Shown piece by piece: positions 9,301-16,655 of a stretch of DNA of 43,947 nucleotides. Made by a program: the position numbers and the translations under genes. Each line of letters opens with the position of its first letter. The first letter of the stretch is position 1. Below the pieces are notes generated by a model that was not told the origin of the DNA, made no database searches, and saw only the letters and a list, made by a program, of their open reading frames with translations. Source of the DNA: Thermoflexia bacterium (GTDB lineage Bacteria; Chloroflexota; Anaerolineae; B4-G1; SLSP01). The stretch covers positions 1-43,947 of the forward strand of contig DUEJ01000014.1 in assembly GCA_011192175.1 (NCBI GenBank), in the 5' to 3' direction.

Positions 9301-10259
9301 ATGAAGATGAAATTGCTGCTGATATGGCGCGAGCTTGGCTCATTGACAAGGCTGAAGATGAGATTATGGCGCGGGCCTGGAGCTGGTTCAAGGCGCAAGA
9401 ATACGATTTAGGTCAGTTGGAGAGCGATGCTGAGGCGCGCCTCATCTACGTGGCGGCCTGGCTTTCGCGGTTGGGTTATGATTTGGATTTATTGCGCGAT
9501 GATGAGGTCTATGCTCGCCGTTCAGTACTCTCTGAATGGTTACGGGAAGAAGGGTATGATCCCGCTAAGGTGCTGGTTTTTGAGGACGATCCGCGGAAAA
9601 ACAACGAGAAGAAGGAAGCGGATCTCTTAGCGATTGATATCTGTTTGCGTTTATGGATGGAAACGCATGGACAGGAGCTAGGGAATCTCTCCGGTGAAGA
9701 GTTGCGGTTGAAAGCAACAGAGATTAGCATTCGGGAAAATTTATCTCTACCTACGTTAGGCAAGATGCAACTTTACGATGGGAAGACAGGCCGCCCTTTT
9801 GATCAGCCGATCACGGTGGGTGTGGTTTATATGCTTAAATTGCATCACTTGATCGAGGACAAGGTTCACACTCGTTCAACTGGGCCTTATTCCTTAGTGA
9901 CCCAACAGCCATTGGGCGGCAAAGCTCAATTTGGCGGTCAACGGTTTGGTGAGATGGAAGTTTGGGCATTAGAGGCTTACGGGGCGGCTTACGTCCTTCA
10001 GGAGATGCTGACCATCAAGTCAGATGATGTGCAAGGCCGGGTGAGCGCCTACGAGTCCATTGTCAAGGGCTTGCCCATCGAGGAACCGGGTATCCCTGCC
10101 TCTTTCAATGTATTGGTGAAAGAATTACAGAGTCTGGCGCTCGCCGTGGAAGCGGTCACCGATACAGGTGAGGTGTTGCTGTTCGCCCGCGAACGGAAAG
10201 ATGCCAAGCTGCCGAAATTGGGGATGGGGTTGTTGGGGCTGGTCCCTGAACGGCGGTAA
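6354..10259 (+). CDS. rpoB: DNA-directed RNA polymerase subunit beta
   Basis: The beta subunit forms the catalytic core of RNA polymerase with beta'. The frame is open from GTG 6309, but GGGAGGAG at 6338-6345 points to ATG 6354, giving 1301 residues. Landmarks are the rifamycin region ([14 protein letters not shown] then [13 protein letters not shown]), [43 protein letters not shown], and the C-terminal clamp [21 protein letters not shown] charged insert of about 130 residues separates [12 protein letters not shown] from [11 protein letters not shown], as in other Chloroflexota. Residue Thr428 replaces the nearly invariant Arg (E. coli Arg529) that contacts rifamycins. A terminator and the rpsL promoter follow; rpoC is absent here. 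Confidence 0.97.
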
Positions 10260-10271
10260 ATTTCGTAACCT

Positions 10272-10308
10272 AGTGAGAGGCGCTCGCGGGGGGAGCCTCT
10301 CACTATTT
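10272..10308 (+). terminator. Terminator after rpoB
   Basis: AGTGAGAGGC (10272-10281) pairs perfectly with GCCTCTCACT (10295-10304), followed by ATTTT. A ten-base perfect stem just 12 bases after the rpoB stop; the T run is short, so some read-through into the str operon is possible. Confidence 0.75.
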
Positions 10309-10374
10309 TCGAGTGGTGGTCAAAATGTGGTTGATAACGATCTCTTTTCCCTGACAAAATCGATTCGCGAAGGG

Positions 10375-10402
10375 TTGACGTTTTTTACCTTCATGGTAGA
10401 AT
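10375..10402 (+). promoter_or_regulatory. Sigma-70-type promoter of the ribosomal superoperon
   Basis: TTGACG (10375-10380), 16 bases, TAGAAT (10397-10402). It lies between the rpoB terminator and rpsL and is the best candidate for driving the whole rpsL to rpsI block. Confidence 0.7.
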
Positions 10403-10478
10403 TCAGTTTTGCGGGGAGGGGAAAAATAGGTTGAAATCACCCTCGTTAAAATGAATTGATATTTGGGTCGTCAAAAGA

Positions 10479-10505
10479 GGCCATCAGAGTTATGATGGCC
10501 TTGTT
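10479..10505 (+). terminator. Hairpin in the rpsL leader
   Basis: GGCCATCA (10479-10486) pairs perfectly with TGATGGCC (10493-10500), followed by TTGTT. It sits in the transcript from 10375 and 30 bases before rpsL. It may act as an attenuator or as an mRNA-stabilising leader hairpin; the short T run makes full termination unlikely. Confidence 0.5.
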
Positions 10506-10529
10506 CACTGGATTTGGCAGGAGGAGAAG

Positions 10530-10943
10530 GTGCCCACGATTAACCAGTTAGTTCGTAAGGGGCGGGAGCGGGGAGAGAATAGATCTAAGTCGCCCGCTTT
10601 GCAATATAATTATAATTCGCTAAAAGGGAAGCGGGTGCGAGTAAAAGAAGGTAATCCGCAAAAGCGTGGTGTTTGCACTATTGTGCGTACCACTACGCCG
10701 AAAAAACCCAACTCAGCGTTACGCAAGATCGCACGGGTACGCCTCTCGAATCGACTAGAGATTACGGCTTACATTCCCGGCGAAGGACATAACCTACAGG
10801 AACACTCTGTGGTACTCGTGCGCGGCGGACGGGTGAAGGATCTCCCTGGTGTGCGTTACCATATCGTCCGAGGGGTTTTGGACACTAGCGGCGTAGAAGG
10901 CCGGCAGCAGAAGCGGTCCAAGTACGGGGCCAAAAAGGCCTGA
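10530..10943 (+). CDS. rpsL: 30S ribosomal protein S12
   Basis: A 137-residue decoding-centre protein. PKKPNS (residues 57-62) keeps both Lys residues linked to streptomycin sensitivity, and [15 protein letters not shown] and [13 protein letters not shown] are intact. Compared with E. coli it has about 15 extra residues before NPQKRGVCT (residues 27-42), an insert I associate with Chloroflexota. The start is GTG, set by AGGAGGAG just upstream. It is the first gene of the str section, 17 bases before rpsG. Confidence 0.96.
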
Positions 10944-13616: not shown

Positions 13617-14834
13617 ATGGCTAAGGAGAAATTTGAGCGCACTAAGCCGCATGTGAATGTTGGTACAATTGGTCACATTGATCATGGTAAAACGACGTTG
13701 ACAGCCGCAATTACGCGCGTATTATCAACCAAGGGGTGGTCGTCTTTTAGGGCTTATGATGAAGTAGCGAAGGCAGATGCCAAGATGTTCCGGCGTGACG
13801 CAACCAAGATTCTAACGGTTGCCATTTCCCACGTGGAGTATGAGACTGCAAATCGTCACTACGCGCACGTGGACTGTCCTGGTCACCGTGACTACATTAA
13901 GAACATGATCACGGGCGCTGCGCAGATGGACGGCGCGATTTTGGTGGTTTCTGCGGTTGATGGCCCGATGCCCCAAACCCGTGAGCATATCTTGTTGGCG
14001 CGCCAGGTTGAGGTTCCTGCGATCGTGGTCTTCTTAAATAAGGTTGACTTGATGGATGACCCCGAACTCCTGGAGCTGGTGGAGTTGGAGATTGCGGAGC
14101 TATTGGATTCTTATGGATTTCCCGGTGACGAGATTCCTATCGTGCGTGGTTCTGCGCTGGAGGCGTTGAACTGTGAGAGTAATGATCCTGAGGATCCGGC
14201 CTATGCTTGCATTTGGGAATTGGTGCGGGCGGTTGATGAGTACGTTCCCACCCCGGAACGTGATGAGGATCGACCTTTCTTGATGCCTATTGAGGATGTT
14301 TTCTCCATCAAGGGGCGTGGTACCGTGGTAACTGGGCGTGTTACCCGTGGTACGATGAAACCCAATACGCCGGTGGAGCTGGTCGGGCTAGAAGCGGAAC
14401 CGCGCAATACCGTGGTCACTTCAATGGAGATGTTCCACAAGATTCTGGCCGAGGTCAAAGCTGGTGATAATGCTGGGTTGCTTCTCCGGGGCGTGGGTAA
14501 AGAGGAGGTAGGGCGCGGTATCGTGGTAGCTAAACCTGGCTCTATCAAGGCTAAGAAGCACTTCAGGGCCGAGGTTTATATCCTTAAAAAGAGTGAGGGA
14601 GGGCGACATAAGCCGTTCTTCACCGGTTACAAACCGCAGTTTTACATCCGCACCATGGATGTAACCGGGCAGATCTCCTTGCCAGAAGGTGTGGAAATGG
14701 TGATGCCTGGTGATAACTGTGAGATGGAAGTTGAATTGATCTACCCTGTCGCCCTCGAAAAAGGTGCCCGTTTCGCTATTCGTGAAGGTGGCTTGACGGT
14801 TGGTGCAGGTGCTATCACTGCTGTGTTGGACTAA
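13617..14834 (+). CDS. tuf: Elongation factor Tu, divergent
   Basis: A 405-residue GTPase that delivers aminoacyl-tRNA to the ribosome. GHIDHGKTT, the catalytic His in CPGH, NKVD and GSALEAL are intact. Switch I is changed: after AYD, 23 residues instead of the usual 18 precede HVEYET, and the normally invariant RGIT is KILT (the Mg-binding Thr is kept). Other changes from near-universal residues, in E. coli numbering, are A85R (CPGHRDY), G257S (TSMEMF), T320K (GGRHKPF), T335M and R381L (EGGLTVG). AAAAGGAGAG precedes the ATG. It lies between fusA and rpsJ as usual. It could be a working but fast-evolving EF-Tu or a specialised paralogue. Confidence 0.93.
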
Positions 14835-14861
14835 GCGGGTTAATTTTAACTTAGGTGGTCT

Positions 14862-15170
14862 ATGAGTAAACAGCGTATTCGAATTCGACTTAAGGCGTAT
14901 GATCACAGGTTGCTAGATGAGTCTGCGCTACGTATTGTTGAGGCGGCTGAGCGTACTGGGGTCGGAGTGGTTGGGCCAGTACCTTTGCCGACCAGGAAAG
15001 AGCGTTTTACCCTACGTCGCTCCACCTTTATTGATAAAGACAGTCATGAGCATTTTGAAATCCGTACGCACAAACGGTTGATTGATATTGTGGAACCGGA
15101 TTCGAAAACGATTGATACCCTGATGCGGCTTAATATGCCCGCGGGCGTGGATATTGAGATAAAGCTCTAA
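14862..15170 (+). CDS. rpsJ: 30S ribosomal protein S10
   Basis: 102 residues, standard length. [17 protein letters not shown] opens the protein, and [17 protein letters not shown] and [12 protein letters not shown] are the conserved core. It sits in the 30S head and is also the NusE antitermination factor. It opens the S10 section and is followed by a 169-base structured gap before rplC. Confidence 0.96.
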
Positions 15171-15179
15171 GTGTTGTGT

Positions 15180-15328
15180 CTGGGACTTAGCTCCCAGCGA
15201 TATTCCTGGTTTATTACTCTCCCCCCTGGTGGATTTGCCGTTGGGGCAAAGACCCCGGGGGGATGGTGTGAACTGGACTCAGGGATGATGCGGTGGATTG
15301 GATTAAGAGGCTGGCAGTCCCAGGGAGG
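15180..15328 (+). promoter_or_regulatory. Structured leader between rpsJ and rplC
   Basis: CTGGGACT (15180-15187) has two exclusive partners: a local one, TCCCAG (15192-15197), and an exact distant one, AGTCCCAG (15316-15323), which abuts the GGGAGG ribosome-binding region of rplC. Between them CCCCCC (15221-15226) pairs with GGGGGG (15257-15262), enclosing TTTGCC (15234-15239) with GGCAAA (15245-15250). The distant pairing could hide the rplC start region. This resembles a ribosomal-protein autoregulatory leader, but no known class was matched. Confidence 0.55.
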
Positions 15329-15339
15329 CAGTAAGGAAG

Positions 15340-15990
15340 ATGAAGAGTATTTTAGGGAAGAAAGTGGGGATGACCCAAGTGATCATGAAGTCTGGCGAAG
15401 TAGTGCCGGTCACTGTGGTGGAAGCTGGCCCCTGTTATGTGGCTCAGGTGCGGACGGAAGAACGCGATGGCTATCGCGCCGTGCAGTTGGGTTACGTGGA
15501 GGCGAAGCCCAAGCACCTGACTAAGGGGCAGCGAGGGCATTTGGAGAAAAATGGTATTCCGGCGCTGCGTTATTTGCGCGAAATTCGCACGAATGAAGAT
15601 GAGGAATACGAAGTAGGGCAGATTATCAAGATTGATATTTTCCAGCCCGGTGAACGGGTGGATATTGTGGGTATTTCTAAGGGGCGAGGTTTTGCCGGTG
15701 TGGTGAAGCGTTATGGCTTTGCTGGCGGGCCGAAAACCCACGGGCAATCTGATCGCCAACGGGCGCCAGGTTCTATTGGGGCTTGTGCTTCGCCCGGTCG
15801 TGTATGGAAGGGCATGCGGATGCCCGGACACATGGGCGCCAAACGTGTAACTTCTCAGAATATTGAAGTAGTTGTGGTTGATCCTGAACGCAATCTCATT
15901 GCTGTCAAGGGCAGTGTCCCCGGACCGAATGGGGGATTGGTGCAGGTGAAACCCACTCGCAAACAGCGAGTGCGGAAGGGAGGTAGGTAA
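15340..15990 (+). CDS. rplC: 50S ribosomal protein L3
   Basis: 216 residues, normal length. The start KSILGKKVGMTQ and the block GPKTHGQSDRQRAPGSIG followed by MPGHMGAKRVTSQN near the peptidyl-transferase centre are diagnostic. L3 binds 23S rRNA early in assembly. Its start region lies next to the switchable pairing in the upstream gap, so it may be the regulated cistron. rplD follows two bases later. Confidence 0.96.
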   Translation: MKSILGKKVGMTQVIMKSGEVVPVTVVEAGPCYVAQVRTEERDGYRAVQLGYVEAKPKHLTKGQRGHLEKNGIPALRYLREIRTNEDEEYEVGQIIKIDIFQPGERVDIVGISKGRGFAGVVKRYGFAGGPKTHGQSDRQRAPGSIGACASPGRVWKGMRMPGHMGAKRVTSQNIEVVVVDPERNLIAVKGSVPGPNGGLVQVKPTRKQRVRKGGR

Positions 15991-15992
15991 CG

Positions 15993-16655
15993 ATGCGCGT
16001 TCCTGTGTTGAACATGCAGGGTGAGACGGTCCAAGAGGCTGAGCTACATCCTGAAATTTTTGAGGCTCGGGTGAACATACCGTTGATGCACCAGGCTCTT
16101 GTGCGGCAGCTGGCAAATGCTCGTCAGGGCACGCATAGTACCAAGACGCGCGGTGAAAACAATCGCACCAAAGCGAAGTGGTTTCGGCAAAAGGGAACCG
16201 GTCGGGCGCGTCATGGTAGCAGAAATGCTCCTATATTCGTGGGTGGTGGTGTCGCTCACGGGCCTAAACCGCATAGCTACAAGAAGCAAATGCCACGCAA
16301 GATGCGGCAGGCGGCTTTGCGTTCTATGCTGACCGTTTTGTTGGCAGAAGAGCGGATAGTGGTGGTAGATGCTTTGCAACTACCGGTGCCCAAAACAAAA
16401 GAAGCCATTAAAGTACTACGGAATCTGGCGGTCACGGGGAAGGTCTTGATCTTATTATCGAAGGATAACGAGTCGGTAGAACGGGCAGTGCGTAACTTAC
16501 CTAAGGTTGATACTTTGCGCGCTGGCTATCTGAATGTGCGAGATGCTTTGAGTGCAGATCATGTAATTATACCCTTGTCCGCACTCGGGGTGTTGGAATC
16601 TATTCTAGGGAAGACCTCCCAACAGAAACCCATGACTGGTTCAGAGGGGGAGTGA
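15993..16655 (+). CDS. rplD: 50S ribosomal protein L4
   Basis: 220 residues. The extended loop that lines the exit tunnel is present: GTHSTKTRGENN, KWFRQKGTGRARHGS and GGGVAHGPKPHSY. In E. coli L4 represses the S10 operon; the leader before rplC is a candidate target here. The tail ends in polar residues. GGGAGG within the rplC end serves as ribosome-binding site. Confidence 0.95.
   Translation: MRVPVLNMQGETVQEAELHPEIFEARVNIPLMHQALVRQLANARQGTHSTKTRGENNRTKAKWFRQKGTGRARHGSRNAPIFVGGGVAHGPKPHSYKKQMPRKMRQAALRSMLTVLLAEERIVVVDALQLPVPKTKEAIKVLRNLAVTGKVLILLSKDNESVERAVRNLPKVDTLRAGYLNVRDALSADHVIIPLSALGVLESILGKTSQQKPMTGSEGE

Follow-up and report, generated by a model that had tools for sequence, protein, structure and literature searches.

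The closest described systems are mRNA structures that control ribosomal-protein genes. In E. coli, the L4-responsive leader of the S10 operon lies before rpsJ, controls the S10-L3-L4 cluster and acts on both transcription and translation (PMC10931766); the site itself is not widely conserved, as stated in section 3.3 of that paper. The E. coli str and spc operons have intercistronic S7 and S8 operators, which are translational and lie inside a ribosomal-protein cluster and not at its head (PMC2704228, PMC10931766). Comparative genomics has yielded the L4 r-leader of Archaeoglobi and the L2 r-leader of Alphaproteobacteria as candidates located before rplC-rplD or rplB (PMC7247131, Table 1). 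No Chloroflexota leader appears in this Table 1, and the accompanying text argues that known ligands recur among leaders.

The window studied here, i.e. the whole stretch of 43,947 nucleotides of Thermoflexia bacterium DNA that was analysed, carries a compact hairpin between rpsJ and rplC. With the E. coli S10 leader it would share the control of the S10-L3-L4 cluster by an mRNA structure, and L4 is a candidate ligand here. Unlike that leader, it is located after rpsJ, beside the rplC Shine-Dalgarno sequence, and no terminator-like site accompanies it; the two were compared by position and mode of action. An earlier note on this DNA had placed a possible regulator after rpsJ and not before it, pointing out the difference from E. 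coli, and this placement holds for the element in the rpsJ-rplC gap. The likeness to the S7 and S8 operators is one of placement, and their genes and ligands are others. The Archaeoglobi and Alphaproteobacteria r-leaders belong to other lineages and gave no Rfam 15 match here, and on these two grounds they are set apart.

Neither the window nor any of 20 relatives gave a match at the gathering score of an Rfam 15 family, and permissive scans returned chance-level matches only. According to PMC7779021, Rfam has incorporated the Weinberg collection together with the PMC7247131 leaders, so the scans included these motifs to the extent that Rfam contains them. The element was found neither in Rfam 15 nor in the literature searched (main texts, with supplementary files and most subscription journals outside the search). 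The hairpin matches no Rfam 15 family and makes a good candidate new ribosomal-protein leader.

The rpsJ-rplC gap and its hairpin

The genes tuf (13617-14834), rpsJ, rplC, rplD and rplW follow one another on the forward strand, and all five proteins were confirmed by Pfam. The gap of 169 nt between rpsJ (ribosomal protein S10; 14862-15170; PF00338) and rplC (ribosomal protein L3; 15340-15990; PF00297), the first gene under the proposed control, extends from 15171 to 15339. It is followed further downstream by rplD (15993-16655; PF00573), which encodes the candidate ligand L4. The gap as a whole is strongly folded (-72.2 kcal/mol, z -2.87), and 1 of 200 shuffles folded equally well. A transcription attenuator was rejected, as no terminator-like site was detected in window 14830-15420. 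An open reading frame of 117 amino acids (15171-15524) was dismissed as a small protein of the gap, since it has no Pfam family and overlaps rplC in another frame. Upstream, in window 10259-10530, a long open reading frame that reads like rpoB is followed by an rpsL-like one without an rpoC-sized frame between them.

The compact hairpin occupies 15282-15321 on the forward strand and ends one base before the probable Shine-Dalgarno sequence of rplC (GGGAGG, 15323-15328), which was assigned from the sequence and a Shine-Dalgarno scan. Its outer helix P1 is formed by GGGAU (15282-15286) and GUCCC (15317-15321) and is backed by covariation and RNAalifold. It encloses an internal loop with GAUG (15287-15290) on the 5' side and GCA (15314-15316; RCA in relatives) on the 3' side, as read from the alignments. 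The inner helix P2 (CGGU, 15291-15294, and GCUG, 15310-15313), identified by covariation and RNAalifold, is capped by an apical loop (15295-15309) that varies in length and sequence in the alignments. The helices on either side vary, while the GAUG / RCA loop is almost invariant. The inner UG of GAUG may form pairs with the CA opposite; these bases hardly vary. A likeness of AUGAUG/CUGA to a kink-turn or box C/D motif was rejected, as the CUGA half ends in A in 41 of 88 rows and in G in 38.

A second hairpin further upstream (15221-15262) is common to the family of the window (f1). The earlier note had correctly described it as a C6/G6 stem with an inner hairpin; C6 lies at 15221-15226, G6 at 15257-15262 and the inner hairpin TTTGCC/GGCAAA within 15234-15250. 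In the form CCCCCCUGG ... CCAGGGGGG, then GUGUGG, it occurs in most gaps of f1, as collected with a script that mis-anchored several rows. The family gaps displayed little covariation in it, and it is regarded as accessory to the class-wide element.

Covariation in relatives

Among 30 loci of relatives, a shared block just 5' of the Shine-Dalgarno sequence, GGGATGATGCGG ... CCGGCAGTCCC, was recognised in 26. A first alignment, A1, comprised 20 of the 26 cores, with long-loop and near-identical cores omitted, and was the basis of model R1. A further alignment, A3, was made from sequence only, without the window's copy; of 96 distinct cores 83 were short, and 72 of these entered it. Its script passed over 8 candidates, and it served as the basis of model R2. 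RNAalifold recovered P1 and P2 unprompted from the 72 relatives in A3. Altogether 96.0% of the cells were paired, and double-sided compensatory changes were present at 8 of the 10 pairs. P1 alone occurred as GGGAU/GUCCC, GAGAU/GUCUC, GGAAU/GUUCC, AGGAU/GUCCU and CGGAU/GUCCG. Double-sided compensatory cells numbered 92, compared with 13.3 in shuffles and at most 27 in slid versions; sliding A3 by 1-3 columns destroyed the covariation signal.

This outcome was matched in a gapless anchored alignment, where the top eight among 624 column pairs all belonged to P1, P2 or their extensions, with pair counts lowered by a few mis-anchored 3' ends. On a protein tree (FastTree; S10 and L3 together, but for six rows only S10), pair 4-40 underwent at least 9 state changes and provided 6 independent contrasts, of which a mean of 5.8 were compensated and none was opposite; the contrasts for each of the other fully listed pairs were too few for significance singly. 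The window's own copy, which is outside A3, scored 34.6 bits (E 1e-7), the next best match 10.8 bits.

Folding of single sequences gave a different picture. Just 9 of the 21 gaps from the window's family put P1 above a probability of 0.5. In the window itself the value was near 0, and for the window and L007 the 3' strand of P1 preferred an upstream partner. Single-sequence folding alone would therefore have missed the element.

Distribution and placement before rplC

The class was taken as Anaerolineae in the wide (GTDB) sense. With strict filters, R1 found the element in at least 73 of the 298 class genomes, and R2 gave one match per genome in at least 86 of 298. All 74 class matches of R1 were inspected: 73 lie in the rpsJ-rplC gap, and the remaining one (L108, the second in G014), antisense inside a long open reading frame, was taken as chance. 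Across the phylum, R2 matched 29 of 301 genomes, all 29 within the class, and R1 matched 19 of 301; a single R1 match outside the class (L069) is antisense inside a 407-aa open reading frame and was likewise attributed to chance. An exact-pattern scan of a named genome collection returned 116 stretches. Among the 80 listed, 79 are situated before rplC, and the titles of these 79 name Chloroflexota (Chloroflexi) or groups within. The remaining one, in a Schwartzia MAG (L156) at a locus where neither rplC nor rpsJ was found, was considered fortuitous. The hairpin is conserved in structure and position and is restricted to rplC.

Forty gaps were hand-picked from genomes without an R1 match so as to spread over families; the element was recognised in 16 and not in the other 24, which makes its absence from class members common too. 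When R1 was run unfiltered on the 16, it reported 11 at E <=0.01 and L130, L131 and L143 weakly; L139 and L140 were unlisted, and their element was read from sequence pairing only. In L068, an rplC without rpsJ in front keeps the element, and rplD is also retained. The distance to rplC is 10-41 nt in most loci; in L217 it is 67 nt, and in L173 and L218 it reaches 149-153 nt, so that the element is not beside the start codon there. L111 and L112, from family f4 and without the element, may form a different hairpin (GACACCGCTGCC ... GGGCAGTGTC) ahead of rplC, perhaps a leader of another kind.

A script applied to 135 loci detected the element in 103; it missed L029, L121, L139, L144 and L147, which were counted as full or degenerate elements by eye or model. 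The scan relied on assumed anti-Shine-Dalgarno letters. The Shine-Dalgarno sequence follows P1 in 91 loci, and in 72 of these it starts 0-4 nt from P1. Only a weak one, after P1, was seen in 3 of the 103. In 9 loci from seven other families (L103, L113, L120, L123, L130, L131, L132, L140 and L143), the sole strong Shine-Dalgarno sequence precedes the hairpin and the start codon is located 14-19 nt after it. Folding showed that P1 is often extended outward toward the Shine-Dalgarno sequence in these loci. This arrangement is a possible variant in which the hairpin bridges the ribosome-binding site. L122 and L139 also have the hairpin between a strong Shine-Dalgarno sequence (AAGGAGG or similar) and the rplC start.

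Promoter-like boxes were noticed in some gaps. L064, L067 and L073 contain TAAAAT or TATAAT boxes between rpsJ and rplC, one of which passes the promoter scan, and this suggests a separate rplC promoter in family f54. The site in L067, TTGGCA-17-TAAAAT, is positioned about 110 nt before the element, which may be a true 5' leader there; shuffles average one such site.

Proposed function and alternative readings

Three features of ribosomal-protein leaders were found together in the element: it stands consistently before a ribosomal-protein gene, its structure covaries, and it adjoins the Shine-Dalgarno sequence. The near-invariant loop between covarying helices looks like a candidate protein-binding site. 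From the position, the conservation of the loop and the known habit of ribosomal-protein operons we infer autogenous translational repression. Acting like a ribosomal-protein leader is the likeliest role of the element, its functional membership being putative. In sum, the hairpin is probably an intercistronic leader that serves as an autogenous translational operator on rplC-rplD. The start of the rplC mRNA would form the small hairpin of P1, GAUG / RCA loop, P2 and variable cap. A ribosomal protein encoded in the operon, when in excess over rRNA, would bind the internal loop and hold the hairpin, and the bound hairpin would block access of the 30S subunit to the adjoining Shine-Dalgarno sequence. 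Translation of rplC would then fall, that of rplD and the later genes would fall by coupling, and tuf and rpsJ upstream would escape control. In either arrangement around the Shine-Dalgarno sequence, a bound protein would obstruct the 30S subunit.

Any protein of the operon might be the ligand. The most likely one is L4, as it is the established ligand for the S10 operon elsewhere; L3 is the second choice, given that the element sits beside rplC and accompanies it in L068, where rplD stays too. A comparison with two 23S rRNA loci, one of them a partial gene, made to look for rRNA mimicry, gave nothing above chance for R1 or R2. A more specific proposal, which we consider doubtful, is that a single sensor module responsive to L3 has two wirings, one in most lineages, upstream beside the Shine-Dalgarno sequence, and one in others, between this sequence and the AUG, where the folded hairpin would build the site and the bound protein would shut it. 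To our knowledge, no L3-responsive leader has been established.

If the proposed operator is real, Anaerolineae, a large and mostly uncultured class, gain a ribosomal-protein leader in the S10 region after rpsJ, a placement that, unlike that in E. coli, leaves rpsJ outside control. The compact RNA with its near-invariant loop would be a handle for ligand tests, and the two arrangements around the Shine-Dalgarno sequence would permit a direct study of the evolutionary rewiring of a translational operator.

The best-surviving alternative, in our judgement an unlikely one, is a protein-independent initiation structure that insulates or presents the rplC site, or bridges the Shine-Dalgarno sequence and the AUG, and sets a fixed rate without a ligand. 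The constant vicinity of hairpin and Shine-Dalgarno sequence agrees with it, and so do the nine loci with the hairpin between Shine-Dalgarno sequence and AUG and P1 often extended outward. However, a near-invariant internal loop amid freely covarying helices exceeds the needs of such a role, and the element occurs as a single copy per genome, only before rplC.

Decidedly less probable is a site of RNA processing or stability that would divide the message of tuf and rpsJ from that of rplC. Although the element lies between these two gene groups, and the window's family has further strong hairpins upstream, it persists without rpsJ in L068 and tracks the Shine-Dalgarno sequence instead of the rpsJ end.

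The earlier note had proposed a two-state switch, in which CTGGGACT (15180-15187) pairs either locally with TCCCAG (15192-15197) or with its exact complement AGTCCCAG (15316-15323) and thereby gates the rplC start. These strings are indeed present, and AGTCCCAG touches the Shine-Dalgarno sequence at 15323. When only the window's own sequence is folded, the long-range pairing has the lowest predicted energy (-72.3 kcal/mol versus -67.5 kcal/mol with the conserved P1 forced). In a same-genus sister (88% identity over the query), CTTGGACT stands at the site of CTGGGACT, one base different; the long-range pairs were predicted there at <=0.03 and P1 at 0.90. At least one exact 8-bp complement of this kind arose in 7.8% of 2000 gap shuffles. 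For the rplC-proximal 8-mer of the 21 family gaps, the best complement upstream did not surpass what shuffles gave (fractions of shuffles 0.295 to 1.0). The window's perfect 8-bp match and its energy minimum speak for the switch, which is nevertheless hardly credible as a conserved mechanism, since its pairing is lost in the sister genome, stays at chance level in the family gaps and is unremarkable against shuffled gaps. At most it would be a rearrangement special to the window's genome, whose own folding energy favours it.

What endures of that proposal is a probable RNA regulator in the gap by the rplC ribosome-binding site; the mutually exclusive pairings of CTGGGACT are not supported. The covariation analysis that the note had suggested for relatives gave strong support for the hairpin at 15282-15321 and little for the C6/G6 stem. 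The hairpin itself had been overlooked: the same AGTCCC that was assigned to the long-range pairing pairs with GGGAT at 15282-15286.
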